Source: Bacillota bacterium (GTDB taxonomy: Bacteria; Bacillota; Sulfobacillia; JAJZYS01; JAJYTV01). Taken from it: a stretch of DNA of 34,762 nucleotides. The notes under the pieces are model-generated. The model had not been told where the DNA came from. It saw only the letters and a list, made by a program, of their open reading frames with translations, and did not search any database. The position numbers were made by a program, and so were the translations under genes. Numbering within the stretch: position 1 is the stretch's first letter; every line of letters begins with the position of its first letter. The DNA is taken from assembly GCA_021847575.1 (NCBI GenBank), contig JAJZQO010000024.1, positions 1 to 34,762 of the forward strand, written 5' to 3'. Positions 15,779-26,950 of the stretch are shown piece after piece.

Positions 15779-16920
15779 GGCAGGAACGGCTCCGCCACGC
15801 GGTGCAAAAGCCAGCGTCCGGCCGCCGTCGGCCGCACACGCCCCGGCAGGGCTTCGAGCAGGCCCTGCCGCACGAGCTGGCGGCGCACGCCCGGATAGGC
15901 GGCGTCGAGCGGGACGCCGAAGCGCAGGCTGAACGCCCTGAGCGAGAAACCCTCCGTCAGGCGCAGGCGCAGGTAGATCCACTCGCCGCGCCTGCCGTCC
16001 GGCGACAGCGTCTCCTCGCCGGCGCAGGCCTCGCCCTGCGCCCCGACGGCCTTCAGGTACGGCCCGGGGCCCGCCACGTTCCACGAGCGCCGGCCGGACA
16101 TGTGCGAATGCGCGCCTGGACCGAAGCCGCGGTAGTCGCCCTGGTGCCAGTAGAGCAGGTTGTGGCGCGAGCGGCGGCCGGGCCGCGCGAAGTTCGAGAT
16201 CTCGTAGCGCTCGAGGCCATGCTGGAGGCAAGCCCTGGCGACGGCCTCGCCGGCCTCGACCACCTCGTCGTCGGAGGGCAGCGGCAACGTGCCGCGCGCC
16301 CGCAGCGCACCGAAGTAGGTGCCATCCTCCACTTCGAGCGCATAGGCGGAGAGGTGCTCGGGACCGAGCGCCAGCGCCTCGCGGGCGTCCCTTTCGGCCT
16401 CGGCGGCCGTCGTGCCGGGCAGTCCGTAGATGACGTCGATGTTCAGGTTGTCGAAGCCCGCCTGACGGGCGGCCCGCACCGCAAGGCGCGTGTCCTCCGG
16501 CGCATGGCCGCGGCCGAGCCGCCGCAGCATCGCCGCATCGAAGCTCTGGGCACCGATCGAGAGGCGCGTCACGCCGGCCCGCGAGAGCTCTTGCAGCAGG
16601 GCGACGTCGACCGTACCCGGGTTGCACTCGAGCGTCACCTCGGCGCGCGGCACGACCCGGTAGCGCCGCCGCAGGGCCTCGAGGATGGCCGCGATCGCCC
16701 GCGGCGGGAACAGGCTCGGCGTCCCGCCGCCGAAGTAGATCGACCTCGCCTGGCGGCCCCGATCGTCGCCAGGGGCCCGCGCGATCTCCTCGACGATGCC
16801 CGCGGCCATCGCCTCGAGCGTCCCCGGCCGCGGCGGCAGGCGGTAGGCGTTGAAGTCGCAGTAGTGGCACTTGTAGGGGCAGTACGGCATGTGCAGGTAG
16901 ACGCCGACCCCGTCACTCAC
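15775..16920 (-). CDS. hemW: radical SAM heme chaperone HemW
   Basis: HemW is a radical SAM protein that binds heme and delivers it to haem proteins, long misnamed an oxygen-independent coproporphyrinogen oxidase (HemN). The [4Fe-4S] motif CPYKCHYC (Cys14, 18, 21) lacks the extra HemN Cys. Family blocks [30 protein letters not shown] and the heme-linked HNLLYW are visible; 381 aa is normal. GTG at 16918-16920 overlaps the lepA stop by eight bases. lepA-hemW is a conserved Firmicutes pair. Confidence 0.93.
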
Positions 16921-18712
16921 CGCGTCTCAGGACGGCCATGAAAGCCTCCTGCGGCACCTCCACCTGGCCCAGCCGGCGCATGCGCTTCTTGCCTTCCTTC
17001 TGCTTCTCGAGGAGCTTGCGCTTGCGCGTGATGTCGCCGCCGTAGCACTTCGCCAGGACGTCCTTGCGCAAGGCGCGGATCGTCTCGCGCGCAAGCACCT
17101 TGCCGCCGACGGCGGCCTGGATCGGCACGTCGAAGAGCTGGCGCGGGATCACCTCGCGCAGCTTCTCGCAGACGGCGCGCCCCTGGCTCTGCGCGCGGCT
17201 CTGGTGGACGATGAAGGAGAGCGCGTCGACCATCTCGCCGTTCAGCAGCAGGTCGACGCGGACCAGGTCGCCGTCCCGCTCGCCCGCGAGCTGGTAGTCG
17301 AGCGAGGCGTAGCCGTGCGTGCGCGACTTCAGCTGGTCGAAGAAGTCGTACATGATCTCGCCGAGCGGCAGCTCGTAGGCCAGCATCGCCCGCTCGGGCG
17401 AGGGGTACTCGATCGTGCGGAAGACGCCGCGGCGCTCCTGGCAAAGCTCCATCACGGGACCGACGAAGCTCGTCGGCGCGATCAGCGTCGCCGCGACGTA
17501 CGGTTCCTCGACCCGCTCGATCCCCCTGCCGGCGTCGAGGGCGGCCGGGTTCTCGATCCGCTCGACGCCTCCGTCGTGGTAGTGGATCGTGTAGACGACG
17601 CTCGGCGCCGTGACGACGAGGTCGATGTCATACTCGCGCTCCAGGCGTTCCTGCACGATCTCGAGGTGCAACAGCCCGAGGAAGCCGCAGCGGAAGCCGA
17701 AGCCCAGCGCCCCCGACGTCTCGGGCTCGAAGGACAGGGCACCGTCGTTCAGCTGCAGCCGCTCGAGCGCCTCGCGCAGCAGGCCGTAGTGGCTGGGCTC
17801 GCTCGGGTAGAGGCCGGCGAAGACCATCGGCACCGCGGGGCGGTAGCCCGCAAGGGGCTCCTGCGCGCCGCCCTCGACCGTCGTGACGGTGTCGCCGACG
17901 CGCGCGTCGCGCACCACCTTGATGCCTGCGGCGAAGTAGCCCACTTCGCCCGCGGCGAGCTCCGCGACGGCGGTCGGCTGCGGCCGGAAGACGCCGAGGT
18001 CGCTGACCTCGTAGGCGGCGCCGGTGGCCATCAGGCGGATGCGCTGTCCCGCCCTGATGCGCCCGTCCACCACCCGGATGTGGCAGACGACGCCGCGGTA
18101 GGCGTCGAAGTGCGAATCGAAGATCAGGGCCTTGAGCGGCCGTTCGCTGTCGCCCCGCGGCGGCGGCACCCGCTCGACGACGGCGTCCAGGATGGCGCCG
18201 ATGCCGGTGCCCTCCTTGGCCGACGCCTCGATCGCGAGGGCGGGATCGAGGCCGATCTGTTCCAGCTCCGCCCTGACGCGCTGGGGGTCGGCCTGCGGCA
18301 GGTCGATCTTGTTGATCACGGGGATGATCTCGAGGTCGTGCTCGAGCGCGAGATAAAGGTTGGCAAGCGTCTGCGCCTCCACGCCCTGCGCCGCGTCGAT
18401 GACCAGCAAGGCCCCTTCGCAGGCGGCGAGCGAGCGGGAGACCTCGTAGGAGAAGTCGACATGCCCTGGCGTGTCGATCAGGTTGAGCACGTGCAGGCCG
18501 TCCTGGCTCCGGTACTCGAGCCGCACCGCCTGGGCCTTGATCGTGATGCCCCGCTCGCGCTCGAGATCCATCGAGTCGAGCACCTGGCTTTGCATCTCGC
18601 GCGCCTGCAGGGTGCCTGTGGCCTCCAGCAGCCGGTCCGCGAGCGTGGATTTGCCGTGGTCGATATGCGCGATGATACAAAAGTTGCGCAGGTCCGTACG
18701 GTCGCCCATCAC
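16913..18712 (-). CDS. lepA: elongation factor 4 (LepA)
   Basis: Ribosome-associated translational GTPase. G1 AHIDHGKST (about 15-23), the RGITIKAQ switch, G3 DTPGHVDF (about 82-89), G4 NKID and the full LepA-specific C-terminal domain ending [17 protein letters not shown] are present; 599 aa is the normal length. The start is either GTG at 18712 or the next codon, ATG at 18709. It is divergent from the yuiD-like gene and probably drives lepA-hemW. Confidence 0.96.
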
Positions 18713-20782: not shown

Positions 20783-21112
20783 TCAGCCCAGGTTGCGCTC
20801 GAGCTCCTGCCTGAGCTGGTTCTTCGGCCGGTAGCCGATGATGCGGTCCTTGAGGCGTCCCTCCTGGAACACGGCCAGGGTGGGGATGCTCATGATGCCA
20901 TAGGTCGAGGCGATCTGCGGGTTCTCGTCGACGTTGAGCTTAAGCACCTTGAGACGGGCGCCGAACTCTCCCGCCAGTTCCTCGACGATGGGCGACACCA
21001 TGCGGCAAGGGCCGCACCACTCGGCCCAGAAGTCCACCAGAACAGGGCGATCCGCGCCCAGTACCTCCGTGGCGAAGCTGTCCTCCGTCACGTTAGCTAC
21101 AGCACCGCTCAA
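20783..21112 (-). CDS. trxA: thioredoxin
   Basis: A 109 aa cytoplasmic thioredoxin that reduces protein disulfides. The active site WCGPC is at about 33-37 within VLVDFWAEWCGPCRM, and the cis-proline loop SIPTLAVF and C-terminal helix are present. TTG at 21112 has GGGAGG upstream. It has its own promoter with a CsoR-like palindrome in the leader (separate entries), so copper or sulfur-species control is possible. It sits between lepA and spoIIP, not a usual location. Confidence 0.94.
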   Translation of the reverse strand: MSGAVANVTEDSFATEVLGADRPVLVDFWAEWCGPCRMVSPIVEELAGEFGARLKVLKLNVDENPQIASTYGIMSIPTLAVFQEGRLKDRIIGYRPKNQLRQELERNLG

Positions 21113-21166: not shown

Positions 21167-21195
21167 ATGCTACGCCGCCAGGCGGCACCGGTCAA
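21167..21195 (-). promoter_or_regulatory. promoter of trxA
   Basis: On the minus strand TTGACC (21195-21190) and TAGCAT (21172-21167) are 17 bases apart, 55 bases before the trxA start. The -35 overlaps the spoIIP stop codon. Confidence 0.7.
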
Positions 21196-22292
21196 GGCAC
21201 CGGCGCACCGCCCAGGAAGTCGGCGATCGCCCCGGCCACGCCCGGCAGTACCGCCTGGACCTGCTCCGGGGTCGCCTGGGGACCGCCGATGTCGATCGTG
21301 AGCATCGTCGGGGAGAGTTGCTGGTTCAGCCGGTCGGGCGAGCGGACGATGCCGCGGAAGACGCCAGGGAGCCTGGCCTGCAGGTAGCTGCCCAGGCTGC
21401 GCGCCAGCTGGAGGTTCTGGCCAGCGTTCGGCTCCGGCAGGTTGGCACCGGTGCCCACCGCCAGCGAAACGCTGGCCACAGGGCCCGCGCCGGTCTTGAC
21501 GGTGGCGGGCACCTCGGGGAAGGTGGGACGCTCAACGTCGAGCAGGATCGCAAGCTGCGGCTCAGCCCTAAGTATGCTGCGCGCGACCGCGTACGATTTC
21601 AGGTAGACGCCGAGTTCGCCCTCGCTGTCGTTCTTCTGCAGCGAAGCGACGGTCGGCACGCCATCCCGCGCGAGCTCCCTGCCAAGGGCCCGCACGACGC
21701 CCAGCACGTTGTCGCCGGGGTCCTGGCTGGTCGGCGGCGGCTGGCTGGCCGACGCCTTGTGCCCGATATAGGCGGCAAGACCCTCCGTCGCGTAGAGGCC
21801 CACCAGCGGCGTCCCGCCGCCGTAGACCTGCAGGCCCTGGTCGAGGTGCCGCGGCGGCGCGGCCGCGGCGGCGGGCTGCGGCAGCTCGACCAGCCACTGC
21901 GCAAGGGACGAGGAAGCGGGTGCGGCGGCGTTGGGACTCAGGCCGAAGCCGACGAAGGCGCTCTCGAAAAGACTCAGGGGATCATGCGGCAGGAGACCGA
22001 GAAAGGCGTAGGCGCCGATGGCCGCAATCTGTTCCCCGGCGATGCCGAACGGGCCCTGCGCCGGCCGCATGCCGCCCAGCGTGGGCAGTCCCTCGCCCAG
22101 GAGGTAGTGCAGGCTCGCCGAGGGCAAGGGCAGGCTGCGGTTCGCGCCGGCGCCGCCCAGCGTGCCCGCGCCGAGCGTCGGCACGGCCGGACCGCCGCGC
22201 GCGTACAGGACGAGCAGCACGAGCAGCACGAGAGGCACCGCGGCGCGCCGCAGGAGCGCCCGCACCAGGCCGCCCACGTCGCGAATCAGCAA
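21192..22292 (-). CDS. SpoIIP-like protein with degenerate active site
   Basis: SpoIIP is the membrane-anchored peptidoglycan amidase that works with SpoIID during engulfment. Here an N-terminal membrane segment (about 14-32) leads to LHYLLGEGLPTLGG and a C-terminal domain matching SpoIIP in order: SQDPGDNVLGVVRALGREL, AEPQLAILLDVERP, SLAVGTGAN, GVFRGIVRSPDRLNQQLSP and TIDIGGPQAT. But the signature expected as YHTHTSE reads VGLYATE, LDIHRD reads LDVERP, and the late GGHGNT-type block is GGPQAT. The family's conserved histidines are thus gone, suggesting a non-catalytic or altered protein. TTG at 22292 (GGGAGG eight bases upstream) is preferred to GTG at 22301. The usual neighbour gpr is absent. 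Confidence 0.75.
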   Translation of the reverse strand: MLIRDVGGLVRALLRRAAVPLVLLVLLVLYARGGPAVPTLGAGTLGGAGANRSLPLPSASLHYLLGEGLPTLGGMRPAQGPFGIAGEQIAAIGAYAFLGLLPHDPLSLFESAFVGFGLSPNAAAPASSSLAQWLVELPQPAAAAAPPRHLDQGLQVYGGGTPLVGLYATEGLAAYIGHKASASQPPPTSQDPGDNVLGVVRALGRELARDGVPTVASLQKNDSEGELGVYLKSYAVARSILRAEPQLAILLDVERPTFPEVPATVKTGAGPVASVSLAVGTGANLPEPNAGQNLQLARSLGSYLQARLPGVFRGIVRSPDRLNQQLSPTMLTIDIGGPQATPEQVQAVLPGVAGAIADFLGGAPVP

Positions 22293-22489
22293 ACGAGCCA
22301 CCTCCCTACGGCTCTATGCCCAACGGCCCTGCCGCAGAAGCCGCGCCGCCGCTCCCGCTTCTGCCGCGGCGGATCCCGCCAGGTTCCGGCGTCCGGGGCT
22401 CAGGCAACAGCGTGGGCGAGCCGCAGCCACGCCACGTTTCCGCCAGGTGGGTGACGGTGTGACCTGGACTCGCGGTGCAGATCGCAACA
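22293..22489. other. intergenic region upstream of the spoIIP-like gene
   Basis: Non-coding as far as I can see. GCAGAAGC (22334-22341) and GCTTCTGC (22357-22364) form an inverted repeat, but no T-tract follows. No convincing SigE promoter for the spoIIP-like gene was found by eye. If the upstream fragment is a tnpB relic, this stretch would be its 3' flank. Confidence 0.4.
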
Positions 22490-22675
22490 TGCGCCGGCAG
22501 CCGCCTGCCGGCTACTGAAACAGAACTGCCGGACGATGTGTCGTCCTGCCGGTTCCACGCAGCGCCCTGGGCATGCCACTCCCAGCCAGGCCCATCTACA
22601 GGTGCGCACTCCGAGGGGCTTAAACGGCAACTTCTTCTGGGTGACGCCACAGGTTGAACAGATCTGTAGCGTCAT
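22490..22675 (-). pseudogene. probable tnpB (IS200/IS605-type) zinc-ribbon C-terminal remnant
   Basis: From 22675 the minus strand reads MTLQICSTCGVTQKKLPFKP, then LGVRTC. This resembles the first half of the C-terminal zinc ribbon of TnpB/OrfB proteins (SQxCSxCG ... LPL..R.Y.C). In a different frame just downstream comes GAAWNRQDDTSSGSSVSVAG, like the low-conservation tails of such proteins. The second CXXC pair and DRDxNAA motif are not intact. It seems a short frameshifted relic with no upstream RuvC-like domain. The call is tentative. Confidence 0.4.
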
Positions 22676-22691
22676 TCCCGCCTTCTGGCAG

Positions 22692-22720
22692 TTCCTGCCC
22701 GAGCCAAGGTCGGGCAGGAA
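22692..22720. repeat. perfect 11-bp inverted repeat
   Basis: TTCCTGCCCGA (22692-22702) and TCGGGCAGGAA (22710-22720) are exact complements around a 7-base spacer. No T-tract follows on either side, so a terminator is unlikely. It lies close to the tnpB-like fragment and may be part of an old mobile element end. Confidence 0.7.
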
Positions 22721-22813
22721 ATCGAACGTCCAGCCCTGGCGTGAACCATGGAACCCGAAGGCCCACTCTCGCGGAGCCCTTTACGCCGCGTCCACTAGGC
22801 CCGGGAGGCGGGA

Positions 22814-22843
22814 TTGCCATAGGTTTCGGGTCTGCTGTAGCAT
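22814..22843 (+). promoter_or_regulatory. candidate promoter of the DUF5680 gene
   Basis: TTGCCA (22814-22819) and TAGCAT (22838-22843) are 18 bases apart and lie about 50 bases upstream of the ATG of the DUF5680 gene on the plus strand. Confidence 0.5.
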
Positions 22844-22892
22844 CCAGGCCAAGATCATGTGCGTCACAAATGGCGTGATGGGGGATCGGGCG

Positions 22893-23363
22893 ATGATCTC
22901 GACGTTGGTGGAGTTCATCCTGGAAGCCAAGCGCAGGACGTATGCAGCTCAGGGGGATGACGCTTCAGTGGAGCCGGCGTTGCCTGGGTCGCAGCAGCTC
23001 GAGTACCAAAGAGGCGAGTACGTCTACAGGGATGTTTACTTCGGCATGAGGCGCTTCGTAGGGCAGGAGACCGTGTATCACGCCGGACTTCCCGTGTGGT
23101 CGATGGCCTACGGCGGTGGCGTCGAGCGACCGGACATCAATTCGGATCAGGTCCGATCCCTCTACGCTTTCTTGCGGGAGGCGATGCGCCAGGTTTCGTC
23201 GCAACGGCCCTACCGAGGCCCGACAAGCCACCACAGGCCGCCGTACACCTATTCCTGCGCTTCCACGGGCGCAATGGCCGCGTTCTGGGGCGAGGAAGCG
23301 ATCTCAGACGCGTCGGACATCGTGTACCGGCTTCGTTTCGCAGGAGGACGAGTGAACGAGTAA
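22893..23363 (+). CDS. DUF5680 domain-containing protein
   Basis: A 156 aa soluble protein. FILEAKRRTYAAQG (about 8-21), LEYQRGEYVYRDVYFGMRRFVGQETVYHAGLPVWSMAYGG (about 38-77), LREAMRQV and the final VYRLRFAGGRVNE match the DUF5680 family, whose function is unknown. ATG at 22893 has GGGGGAT upstream; the frame is open further 5' but that part has no family similarity. The gene is intact, although it sits in a decayed, gene-poor stretch, so it is likely acquired or retained cargo. Confidence 0.7.
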   Translation: MISTLVEFILEAKRRTYAAQGDDASVEPALPGSQQLEYQRGEYVYRDVYFGMRRFVGQETVYHAGLPVWSMAYGGGVERPDINSDQVRSLYAFLREAMRQVSSQRPYRGPTSHHRPPYTYSCASTGAMAAFWGEEAISDASDIVYRLRFAGGRVNE

Positions 23364-23639
23364 CTTCTGGAACTCAGCCACGGCTTCGACTTCCTCGATC
23401 TCGTCAGTCTCGTGCCGCCCTGCCCCAGTCAGGTCGACGAGCCGTCTGGACTGATAACATGCGGGCAGTATGTGAACACAGCGGCGAATTCCACGCCGAT
23501 GCTGCGGCGTGTGGGCAGACGCGGTATGCGCGACAGACAGGCCGTGGATCGGGCAGGGCATTTGAGAGCGAAGGGCGGCAGAGCGACAGGCGATCCGCTA
23601 CCGCATGTATCACCCCACAGCATCGCGCTCGACTCCCTG
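23364..23639. other. gene-poor stretch without recognisable gene
   Basis: Several overlapping open frames exist on both strands, but none shows a family pattern or a credible start. It probably includes the eroded 5' part of the IS110-like transposase that becomes recognisable after 23640. Confidence 0.4.
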
Positions 23640-23902
23640 CAAGGTGCGCGGACGCGCGAAGTTGTGCCAACAGCCCAAAGGGAGATCTCCACAAACGTCA
23701 GGAGGGGCAGACCGCCCAGGTGTGCGAGATCTCATGGCGGGCACAGAACCGGCTGCACAAGACGTACGTGCGTCTCATCATGCGCGGCAAAGGGGGTGGT
23801 GTGACGGCTGCAGCAGTTGCCCGAGAGCTGCTCGGCTTCGTGTGGGCCATCGCCTGCGCCGTCGAGCGGGAGCAGCGCAATCTGCGTACACCGGCTACCT
23901 GA
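23640..23902 (+). pseudogene. IS110/IS1111-family transposase, C-terminal remnant
   Basis: The plus-strand frame ending at 23902 reads KRQEGQTAQVCEISWRAQNR (from about 23694), then LHKTYVRLIMRGKG and AAVARELLGFVWAIACAV. This matches the C-terminal end of IS110-family transposases of the type ending 'W+AQ.RL..RY..L..RGK ... AiARELlGF.WAI'. No N-terminal DEDD domain or start can be found upstream, so the gene is truncated. Confidence 0.65.
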
Positions 23903-24303
23903 GACCGCACGCGCTACTTCGACGCCCGGGCCAGCCCACATGATGCACGATACGGTGGGAGCGACTGACGGCAAGGCGATCTGACGGCCCCGCTTCGCGG
24001 CTACCGGCCTTGCCTTCACCCGCTCCCACCCCGGCACTTGCTTTCCAGGTGGGCCGGATCCGCCCAGCAGATCTTGAAGCTTGGTTCGGTTGCTGAGGGG
24101 ACCAACGGACAGGGAGATTCTTCGACCACGGCTATGTGCAGGGCCCAGGCTCCACGCACGACTTTAGTCCGAAGCAGCTCCCCAGACGGTTACATGAAAT
24201 GCGGTACTCAACCCGCGAATATCCGGCTGTACACCGTCGCTAAAGACCTCCCGGCACCGAACCAGGATCCTTTCTCACGAGGGGCTTGACGGCCTCGTTC
24301 ATA
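23903..24303 (+). mobile_element. 3' non-coding tail of the IS110/IS1111-type element (candidate bridge-RNA region)
   Basis: About 400 bases after the transposase stop carry no gene, but include stretches (around 24165-24245, with TTTAGTCCGAAGCAGCTCCC and CGGTACTCAACCCGCGAATA) that I recall as conserved downstream of such transposases. In IS1111-subgroup elements the non-coding end after the transposase gene encodes the bridge RNA. Element end not located; assignment is inference. Confidence 0.4.
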
Positions 24304-24627
24304 TCAGCCGTGGGGTGGTTGACTCGTCAGCGGCACGGTCTGGGCGACCCTGAGCAAGCCATCAATGTCGAGTTCCTTCATCGATCTCGCGCAACAGAAC
24401 TTATACTTCTTACCACTCCCGCAACGGCAAGGAGCGTAGGGGTCAGATTGGGCGAACTGGACTAAGAGTGCCCTTCTGAGATCCGATACGTCTTCGAAAG
24501 AGTCAAAGCCCAAGATGAAGTGCCAGCCAAATTGCTCGCAGATCCCTACCACCTGCTCGGCTCGCTCTTCCGAGGCAACTCTCACGATGATCGGATGCAT
24601 CTTGGACCCCCAGGGAACGTTCCCCAT
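24304..24627 (-). CDS. SEC-C motif protein (PBPRA1643-like)
   Basis: A 107 aa protein with PIIVRVASEERAEQVVGICEQFGWHFILGFDSFEDVSDL in its first half and a SEC-C metal-binding motif PCRCGSGKKYKFCC at about residues 77-90. It resembles short SEC-C proteins of the PBPRA1643 type, whose function is unknown; the motif binds zinc. ATG at 24627 has GGAG nine bases upstream. The frame is open back to 24918, and part of that could belong to the protein, but no similarity is visible there. Confidence 0.7.
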   Translation of the reverse strand: MGNVPWGSKMHPIIVRVASEERAEQVVGICEQFGWHFILGFDSFEDVSDLRRALLVQFAQSDPYAPCRCGSGKKYKFCCARSMKELDIDGLLRVAQTVPLTSQPPHG

Positions 24628-25516
24628 CTTCGATGTCTCCTCCGCCCGTGATGGCCCGCCAGTTGCCTTCGGCGGTTCCTCGCACCCGCTGTTCGCCTCG
24701 GGGGTCCGCATCTCCTTGTCGAGCAGTTGCCGCGAGCCTCCCTCAAAGAGGCCGCTCTCAGCTGAATCACGATCCTGTGCAGCGGCCGCCCCCGGGATGA
24801 ACCGCTCGACCAGGAGAGGCGTGGCGAAGCCCACCGAGCGCATGCCCTTGGGAATCAGCCGCGGCCGCGGCGACACTGTGAAGATCGCCAGCCAAGGTAG
24901 GCACTTGCACGTCCCCAACTAACGGTGCCGCCGACGCAGCCCGCGACAGAGCCGCACCTGCCAGTCGATATCATCGCCTTCCTCCACGCTGCTCCTGTCT
25001 CTGTAGGGCGGACCGACGCCGAGCCGCCGAGCTCATCCACAGGGATCCCCTGCTCGGAGAACCTGCGTCGTCACCTCTGGGTGCAGACACCGTCCGTGCC
25101 CCTTCGCGTCCTCCTGCCTCCCCGCTTGCAATCGCCCGAGGCCGGCAATCAGGTACGCGATATGGTCGAGCCCGCATCGTCCATATCCGTGTCGCCTACC
25201 CGGTCCTGCGCCTGATAGGCTGCTTTGGCTGCAGTTTGACCCTGGGGTACGCCACGCTCTGCCCGCACCTTCGTCCGTCGGCGCTACAACCGCGTCACCA
25301 GCGCCTGGGGCTGGTCCGCCCAGCGCCGCTCCTTCTCTATCAGGCGCAGCCCACCGGTCTCACGCTCGCCGCATCCGGCATGCCCTGTGGCCTGGAGTTG
25401 GGGTTCAGCAGGTTGCCCGCGCAGCGGGCGCACTGTGGAGCCGCTCCCTCGAACGGTCCCCATTGTCCCGCAGTTGACCATAATCTCCGACCGGTTGCGC
25501 TGGACAGCTCTGTTGA
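24628..25516. other. gene-poor stretch upstream of rpsT
   Basis: Nearly 900 bases with only weak, overlapping open frames on both strands and no recognisable family, RNA gene or terminator. Base composition appears less GC-rich than the flanking operons. It may be a graveyard of an insertion at the position where gpr is normally found. Confidence 0.4.
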
Positions 25517-25537
25517 CATGCAGCACGCCGCTGCATG
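25517..25537. repeat. palindrome just upstream of the rpsT promoter
   Basis: CATGCAGC and GCTGCATG form perfect 8-bp arms around ACGCC, ending five bases before the rpsT -35. Such placement fits an operator, but no regulator is known for it. Confidence 0.5.
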
Positions 25538-25542
25538 GCCAC

Positions 25543-25571
25543 TTCCAAAGTCTCGTCGCCAATGCTAAAAT
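25543..25571 (+). promoter_or_regulatory. candidate promoter of rpsT
   Basis: TTCCAA (25543-25548) and a good -10 TAAAAT (25566-25571) are 17 bases apart, 22 bases before the TTG start of rpsT. An AT-rich -10 is rare in this region, which supports the call. Confidence 0.6.
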
Positions 25572-25593
25572 GCTATGTCGGAGGTGGAGACGC

Positions 25594-25854
25594 TTGGCCA
25601 ACATCAAGTCCGCAAAGAAGCGGGCGGCACTGACGGAAGTGCGGCGGCTCAGGAACCATGCCGTACGGTCCACGGTGCACACGGCGGTCCGGCGCTTCGA
25701 GCGGGCTGTGGCCACCGATGCGGCGGCTTCCCAGCAGGAGTACCGTGAAGCCTGCCGTCAACTCGATCGGGCGGTGACGCGCGGCGTGCTGCATCGCAAC
25801 GCTGCGGCCCGCAAGAAGTCGCGCCTCGCCAAGAAGCTTGCGATCCCTTCCTGA
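25594..25854 (+). CDS. rpsT: small ribosomal subunit protein bS20
   Basis: An 86 aa basic protein starting LANIKSAKKRAALTEVRRLRN and ending NAAARKKSRLAKKLA, the classic bS20 pattern; it binds 16S rRNA directly in the 30S body. TTG at 25594 is preceded by GGAGGTGG; the longer open frame upstream is rejected. It is convergent with holA, from which it is separated by a strong hairpin. Confidence 0.95.
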   Translation: MANIKSAKKRAALTEVRRLRNHAVRSTVHTAVRRFERAVATDAAASQQEYREACRQLDRAVTRGVLHRNAAARKKSRLAKKLAIPS

Positions 25855-25951: not shown

Positions 25952-26950
25952 TCAAAACTGTGCGCCCGCGACGCGCATCAACCCGAGCTCGAGGGCGAGC
26001 GGCTGGCTGCCGCCCGATTTGAGCGCAAGATCGCAGCGCAGGAGTTCGCGGAAAGCGGCGACGATCCCGGCCTGGCTCCAGAGCGGCGCCGCCTGGCACA
26101 GCTTTTGCGCGACGAAGGGGTGGGCGCCGATGATCTTGGCGAGTTCCTGGGCCGACCGGCCCGCGGCGAGTTCCGCCCTGGCGGCGGCGAGTTGGCGCAG
26201 TTGACGCGCGACGAGGGCGAGCAGACCAAGCGGCGCCTCCCCCTGGCCCAGCAGCTGACCGAGCACTGTCGCGACACCTGTCGGCCGCCGCTGCAGGATC
26301 GCATCGGTCAGGGCGAACACCCTGAGCTCCACCGCAGGCGGGGCTGCCCACGCGGCCACGTCCGCGGTGATCGGCGAGCCCTCGTCCATGGCCAGTTCGG
26401 CGGTCCCGAGTGCCGTGGCGAGGCTGTCGAGGTCGAGCCCGCTCGCAAGAAAGGCCTGCGTCGCCTGGGGCGGCAACTTCACCCCCGCCTGCCGCGCAAG
26501 TTCACCGAGCCAGGCGCCGAGCTCCTTGCCCGCGTCGGCAGGCAGGAGCCAGCCCCGCTCAACGGCCCTGCGCACCGGTGCCAGCCTGCCGTCCGCTTCG
26601 GGAGCCCAGACGAACAGCGTCGCGCCGCGTGGCGGCCGCTCCATATGGTCGGCCAGGGCCCGCAGCTCGAGGGCCCTCTCCTGCTCGCCCCTGCCCTTCT
26701 GGCCGGTGAGCGCCTGCGTTCGCCAGGCGACGACGAGGCCCGCGTCGCCGAAGAACGACGGCGTCGCCGCCAGTTCGCACGCCTCGCGCAGCTGACCGTC
26801 GCCCGCGCCGACCCGCTCCACGTCCGCCTCGCGACCTTTGACAAGCTGGCTCAGCGCCATGCCGGCCAGCGTGGCGGAGGGCCCGACGCAGAGCACCACA
26901 GGTGCCTCGGCCAACCGCGCCGACAGGGCCAGAAACTCGCGCGGACCCAT
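25952..26950 (-). CDS. holA: DNA polymerase III delta subunit
   Basis: Clamp-loader subunit that opens the beta sliding clamp. The 332 aa protein has the diverged AAA+ fold of HolA. Recognisable parts are the N-terminal block with the 'tpsFFgdaglVvaw' strand, RGWLLPADAGKELGAWL in the middle, and the C-terminal collar with VLGQLLGQGEAPLGLLALVARQLRQL and HPFVAQKL. ATG at 26950 has GGGGGGA upstream. The convergent holA/rpsT pair is typical for Firmicutes; comEC, usually upstream of holA, is absent. Confidence 0.88.
   Translation of the reverse strand: MGPREFLALSARLAEAPVVLCVGPSATLAGMALSQLVKGREADVERVGAGDGQLREACELAATPSFFGDAGLVVAWRTQALTGQKGRGEQERALELRALADHMERPPRGATLFVWAPEADGRLAPVRRAVERGWLLPADAGKELGAWLGELARQAGVKLPPQATQAFLASGLDLDSLATALGTAELAMDEGSPITADVAAWAAPPAVELRVFALTDAILQRRPTGVATVLGQLLGQGEAPLGLLALVARQLRQLAAARAELAAGRSAQELAKIIGAHPFVAQKLCQAAPLWSQAGIVAAFRELLRCDLALKSGGSQPLALELGLMRVAGAQF

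Follow-up and report, generated by a model that had tools for sequence, protein, structure and literature searches.

SpoIIP normally cuts the cell wall as the mother cell engulfs the spore. The window analysed here, the whole stretch of 34,762 nucleotides, encodes a protein that a sequence-only reading had taken for a SpoIIP homologue with the fold kept and the active-site histidines gone. This raises two questions, namely whether the gene is a true spoIIP and whether its product can still cut the wall. The gene and its neighbours are as follows.

21192..22301, minus strand: spoIIP orthologue, 369 aa, GTG start (profile match and synteny)
21204..21824, minus strand: SpoIIP / amidase-like C-terminal domain, residues 160-366 (profile and predicted model)
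20783..21112, minus strand: thioredoxin gene adjoining spoIIP, kept within the family (synteny)
16913..18712, minus strand: lepA, neighbour of spoIIP in every genome compared (synteny)
25387..25854, plus strand: rpsT (ribosomal S20), neighbour on the other side of spoIIP (synteny)
25952..26950, minus strand: holA (DNA polymerase III delta), neighbour (synteny)

The assignment to SpoIIP was borne out, as residues 163-356 score 59 bits against the Pfam SpoIIP profile (PF07454), above the GA cut-off of 24.4; the NCBIfam spore_II_P score (TIGR02867) is 68.7 bits, below the cut-off of 123.15. A hydrophobic helix at about residues 16-35, which we read as a membrane anchor, is followed by a linker and then the C-terminal domain. 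The order holA-rpsT-spoIIP-lepA is the same in relatives and also in distant members of the class, barring insertions and some rearrangement, and the gene in the window is therefore the spoIIP orthologue. It thus shares with SpoIIP of B. subtilis and C. difficile the profile match, the N-terminal anchor with an amidase-like C-terminal domain, the rpsT-spoIIP-lepA position and the co-occurrence with a SpoIIM-like protein and sporulation genes. The sequence-only reading had also considered that another spoIIP exists, which is refuted for the source genome: a profile search across the assembly (2.86 Mb, 137 contigs, 99.4% complete) gave a single PF07454 match and no second spoIIP. The gap of about 3 kb between spoIIP and rpsT (22302-25386) contains an ORF that encodes a DUF5680 domain (22536-23363, plus strand) and an ORF without a Pfam match whose C-terminus is CxC-rich and SEC-C-like (24304-24918, minus strand). 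No gpr, the usual neighbour of spoIIP in B. subtilis, was identified in this gap.

In C. difficile SpoIIP, H142 and H222 are needed for peptidoglycan cleavage and for sporulation, and both are abolished by H142R and H222R (PMC6221140; PMC6934232). The role of the catalytic His itself is unsettled because no bound metal was seen in that protein (PMC6221140). We aligned a profile of the source family with a profile of intact SpoIIPs (hhalign, Prob 100, E 5e-46), which placed the residues of interest at the following codons.

21783..21785, minus strand: Glu173 codon, at the position of catalytic H142 (C. difficile numbering), the second His of motif 1 (alignment)
21774..21776, minus strand: Ala176 codon, aligned with the Glu of motif 1 (HxxE) (alignment)
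21531..21533, minus strand: Glu257 codon, in LDVERP, at the position of catalytic H222 (alignment)
21291..21293, minus strand: Asp337 codon, in TIDIGG, aligned with the Glu conserved in the late block (E309 in C. difficile) (alignment; PMC6934232)

In motif 1, YATEGLAAY pairs gaplessly with YHTHATESY, so that the pairing of VGLYATE with YHTHTSE that had been proposed earlier is three residues off. The replacement of LD(I/L/V)HRD by LDVERP was confirmed by the alignment. The positions of the two catalytic histidines are thus held by E173 and E257. As for the third block, in which a further histidine was thought to be lost, the change itself stands, since VEVGG has become IDIGG (Glu to Asp337) and an Asn has become Ala; the histidine loss does not, as this block never held a catalytic His and reads GGVDNT or GGPENT in intact SpoIIPs. 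Asp337 still provides the late acidic residue, a position at which Asp is tolerated and Glu-to-Asp is a functional substitution in some SpoIIPs (PMC6934232). As judged from the alignment, the real losses are the two catalytic histidines and the motif-1 Glu. Zinc-binding or catalytic residues conserved at shifted positions were looked for and none were found: no C-domain column of the source-family alignment holds a conserved His. Therefore the active site has not simply moved, and shifted His ligands are ruled out. Unlike the B. subtilis and C. difficile proteins, the source SpoIIP has Glu for both histidines, Ala for the motif-1 Glu and Asp for the late Glu. The strict conservation of these histidines that has been stated in print is thereby contradicted, and we found no description of eroded histidines or inactive SpoIIPs in the literature searched (open-licence papers only).

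Because a search of PDB sequences with the source SpoIIP gave no match, the fold was searched instead. The AF2 model of the C-domain, of moderate confidence (pLDDT mostly 60-92), matches the N-acetylmuramoyl-L-alanine amidases Ami1, AmiC2 and CwlV (Foldseek E 1.5e-5 to 4.5e-4, with Ami1 at 1.5e-5) at a TM to target of about 0.55-0.6. The source protein would thus share the predicted fold of the Amidase_3 enzymes CwlV, Ami1/Rv3717 and AmiC2 without their zinc ligands. The family profile did not align with the Amidase_3 profile (E 0.32); only the intact-SpoIIP profile did, and there H222 matches the His of IHAN and the late Glu matches the Glu of EVGF. Taken together, the family alignment, the profile comparison and the predicted model support the earlier view that the fold is kept and the active-site histidines are gone.

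The family sample comprises ten genomes from two genera, and the relatives with names are MAGs labelled 'Bacillota bacterium' or 'Clostridia bacterium'. Nine of the genomes carry one spoIIP each. The two genera are about 50% identical in SpoIIP, and E173, E257 and D337 do not vary within the family, both Glu being common to all nine genes found. An assembly error is excluded, as the same substitutions occur in nine genes. It might be argued that the gene is a decaying relic, on its way out because SpoIIP is no longer needed. This fits one genome of the same genus (G006, 90% complete), which has no SpoIIP match, by loss or through an assembly gap, and which keeps the SpoIID/LytB-like protein and SpoIIM. 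It also fits a sister family of the same order (f2), in which three genomes of 1.5-1.6 Mb (G016, G042, G071) are without SpoIIP, SpoIIM, SpoIID and Amidase_3 and the two tested also lack Spo0A and SpoIIIAH, so that sporulation appears to have been lost altogether. The stem branch of the source family is long as well (1.99 changes per site, its placement being unsure), a length that a change of function could explain too. However, reading frames are intact in 9/9 genes, and within the source genus the dN/dS of the C-domain is 0.14-0.33, values that are rough because synonymous sites are strongly GC-biased. By this measure the C-domain is under purifying selection. Conservation within it is highest in the old active-site motifs, with 34 of 50 columns invariant in the four motifs as compared with 42 of 171 elsewhere in the C-domain (Fisher p 5e-8), and the sporulation genes described below are retained. 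We therefore regard decay as an unlikely explanation.

Which sporulation and wall enzymes accompany this SpoIIP? In the source genome Spo0A scores 381.8 bits (cut-off 200) and SpoIIIAH is above its cut-off. The SpoIIM-like protein, at 93.6 bits, lies just under 100.2, and the best matches to SpoIVB, a SigF-type sigma factor, SpoIIAA, SpoVAC and SpoVAE are each somewhat under the equivalog cut-off. Canonical SpoIID (TIGR02870) was not found in the source family, and in the source genome nothing exceeded the equivalog cut-off, the best match reaching 151.9 against 234.75 bits. The sole SpoIID-domain protein fits the SpoIID/LytB domain model and exceeds canonical SpoIID in length (open frame of 577-624 aa in most members). 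The source thus differs from B. subtilis and C. difficile in having no canonical SpoIID partner. The idea that its SpoIIP is a non-catalytic partner of SpoIID is left unsupported, and we rejected SpoIID as partner since the only candidate is LytB-like. The genome encodes a single Amidase_3 protein, which is CwlD-like although below the CwlD cut-off and which keeps the ligand and catalytic H-E-H-E residues, as read from the alignment.

Dead paralogues often act as activators or allosteric partners, and SpoIIP might play such a part for the SpoIID/LytB-like protein or for the CwlD-like amidase. Most members of the family have both enzymes, whose catalytic motifs look intact by eye, and the cleft motifs of SpoIIP are still conserved. 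On the other hand, spoIIP is linked to the gene of neither enzyme (they lie on different contigs) and CwlD should work at a later stage and another site, which makes this role improbable in our judgement.

We then compared 84 SpoIIPs from the wider class, comprising 32 whose genomes have a SpoIID above the threshold and 52 whose genomes have none. Histidines were lost in 0/32 of the former and in 19/52 of the latter, a difference (Fisher p 2.7e-5) that is not corrected for kinship; the association lacks phylogenetic independence, and in an independent-pairs test the pairs were too few for significance. Outside the source family the class alignment shows both histidines absent from G101, G141 and G143 (F/Q), G124 and G135 (R/N), G122 (E/Q), G086 (F/A), G094 (R/A) and G026 (I/E). 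Like the source SpoIIP, these nine have no threshold-passing SpoIID beside them, but they carry other replacement residues. In G102 and G047 the first His alone is lost, to Asp, and G047 has a fragment of a SpoIID-like gene at a contig edge. On a SpoIIP tree built with the motif residues masked, at least three changes are needed for the first His and at least four for the second, and histidine loss occurred at least three separate times in the class. Conversely, 33 genomes without canonical SpoIID, as judged by the cut-off, keep both histidines of SpoIIP, and therefore the loss of SpoIID most likely came first. The absence of SpoIID from Sulfobacillus has been reported earlier (PMC7924749). 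Genomes of family f47 encode SpoIIP-like proteins with motif 1 largely deleted (L069, L070) together with second copies (L071, L072) in which both catalytic histidines are present.

The replacement residues also bear on a further alternative, in which SpoIIP would be an active hydrolase with a rebuilt site, Glu173, Glu257 and Asp337 forming an acid carboxylate centre or a site for another metal. Such a site would suit an acidic exterior where histidine sites are protonated. At least one family member, LSA2.bin86, carries the name of sample LSA2, a link made through the sample name, and another MAG from that sample was described as originating in acid mine drainage with a pH below 3 (PMC10833072). 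Until engulfment is complete, the space within the septum stays in contact with the medium, and it is the CwlD-like Amidase_3, expected to act after sealing, that keeps its H-E-H-E residues. The invariance of the three acidic residues in the family also favours a rebuilt site. However, other His-less lineages have unrelated residues at the same positions (R/A, F/Q, R/N, I/E, F/A), a pattern that favours loss over a new site, and most Sulfobacillaceae-like SpoIIPs keep both histidines. Moreover, we know of no amidase that works by a Glu/Glu/Asp acid site. We thus consider a rebuilt hydrolase very unlikely, even if the Glu/Glu/Asp site could still hold a metal or do acid chemistry.

The reading that we prefer, with a probability of roughly 0.6, is that the source SpoIIP is a true orthologue that has become a non-hydrolytic pseudo-amidase, an envelope protein held by SpoIIM in putative sporulators that have given up the SpoIID/SpoIIP hydrolase pair. 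As both cutting histidines have become Glu, spore engulfment in this family is probably not carried out by the textbook wall-cutting machine. Canonical SpoIID probably disappeared before the catalytic function of SpoIIP decayed, and this decay would have occurred several times. SpoIID attacks glycan strands only once SpoIIP has stripped them (PMC6221140). Once SpoIID had gone, cutting by SpoIIP would have lost part of its use and the binding of SpoIIM and of the wall may still have mattered, which makes a pseudo-amidase scaffold the most likely outcome. The protein would sit at the septum, anchored in the membrane of the mother cell and held by SpoIIM, and its old cleft may still bind peptidoglycan or a partner, as a tether or scaffold and not as scissors. 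Engulfment would be driven by other means, for example by a SpoIIQ-SpoIIIAH zipper together with wall synthesis, or by another hydrolase. The earlier proposal that engulfment here uses a different enzyme holds to the extent that a different engine is the best reading, SpoIIM and SpoIIIAH being present; its other part, a partnership with SpoIID, is not supported. A precedent for an engulfment protein with a hydrolase fold and a lost catalytic site is SpoIIQ of Bacilli, with its degenerate LytM domain (PMC6934232), although SpoIIQ has another fold, lies on the forespore side and is part of the Q:AH zipper.

The retention of SpoIIP and SpoIIM and the repeated loss of the histidines, in our sample only where no threshold-passing SpoIID is present, suggest that the scaffold and cutting roles of SpoIIP are separable. 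More tentatively, and at somewhat less than even odds, engulfment may proceed without SpoIID/SpoIIP hydrolysis in this organism and in several related lineages, with SpoIIP as a scaffold that binds the wall or is bound to SpoIIM or, much less likely, as an acid-active Glu/Glu/Asp hydrolase, since histidine catalysis would fail in a septal space exposed to a medium with a pH below 3. The question of what drives engulfment, whether cutting, synthesis or zippering, thereby becomes testable, for example in cultivable Sulfobacillaceae-like relatives.
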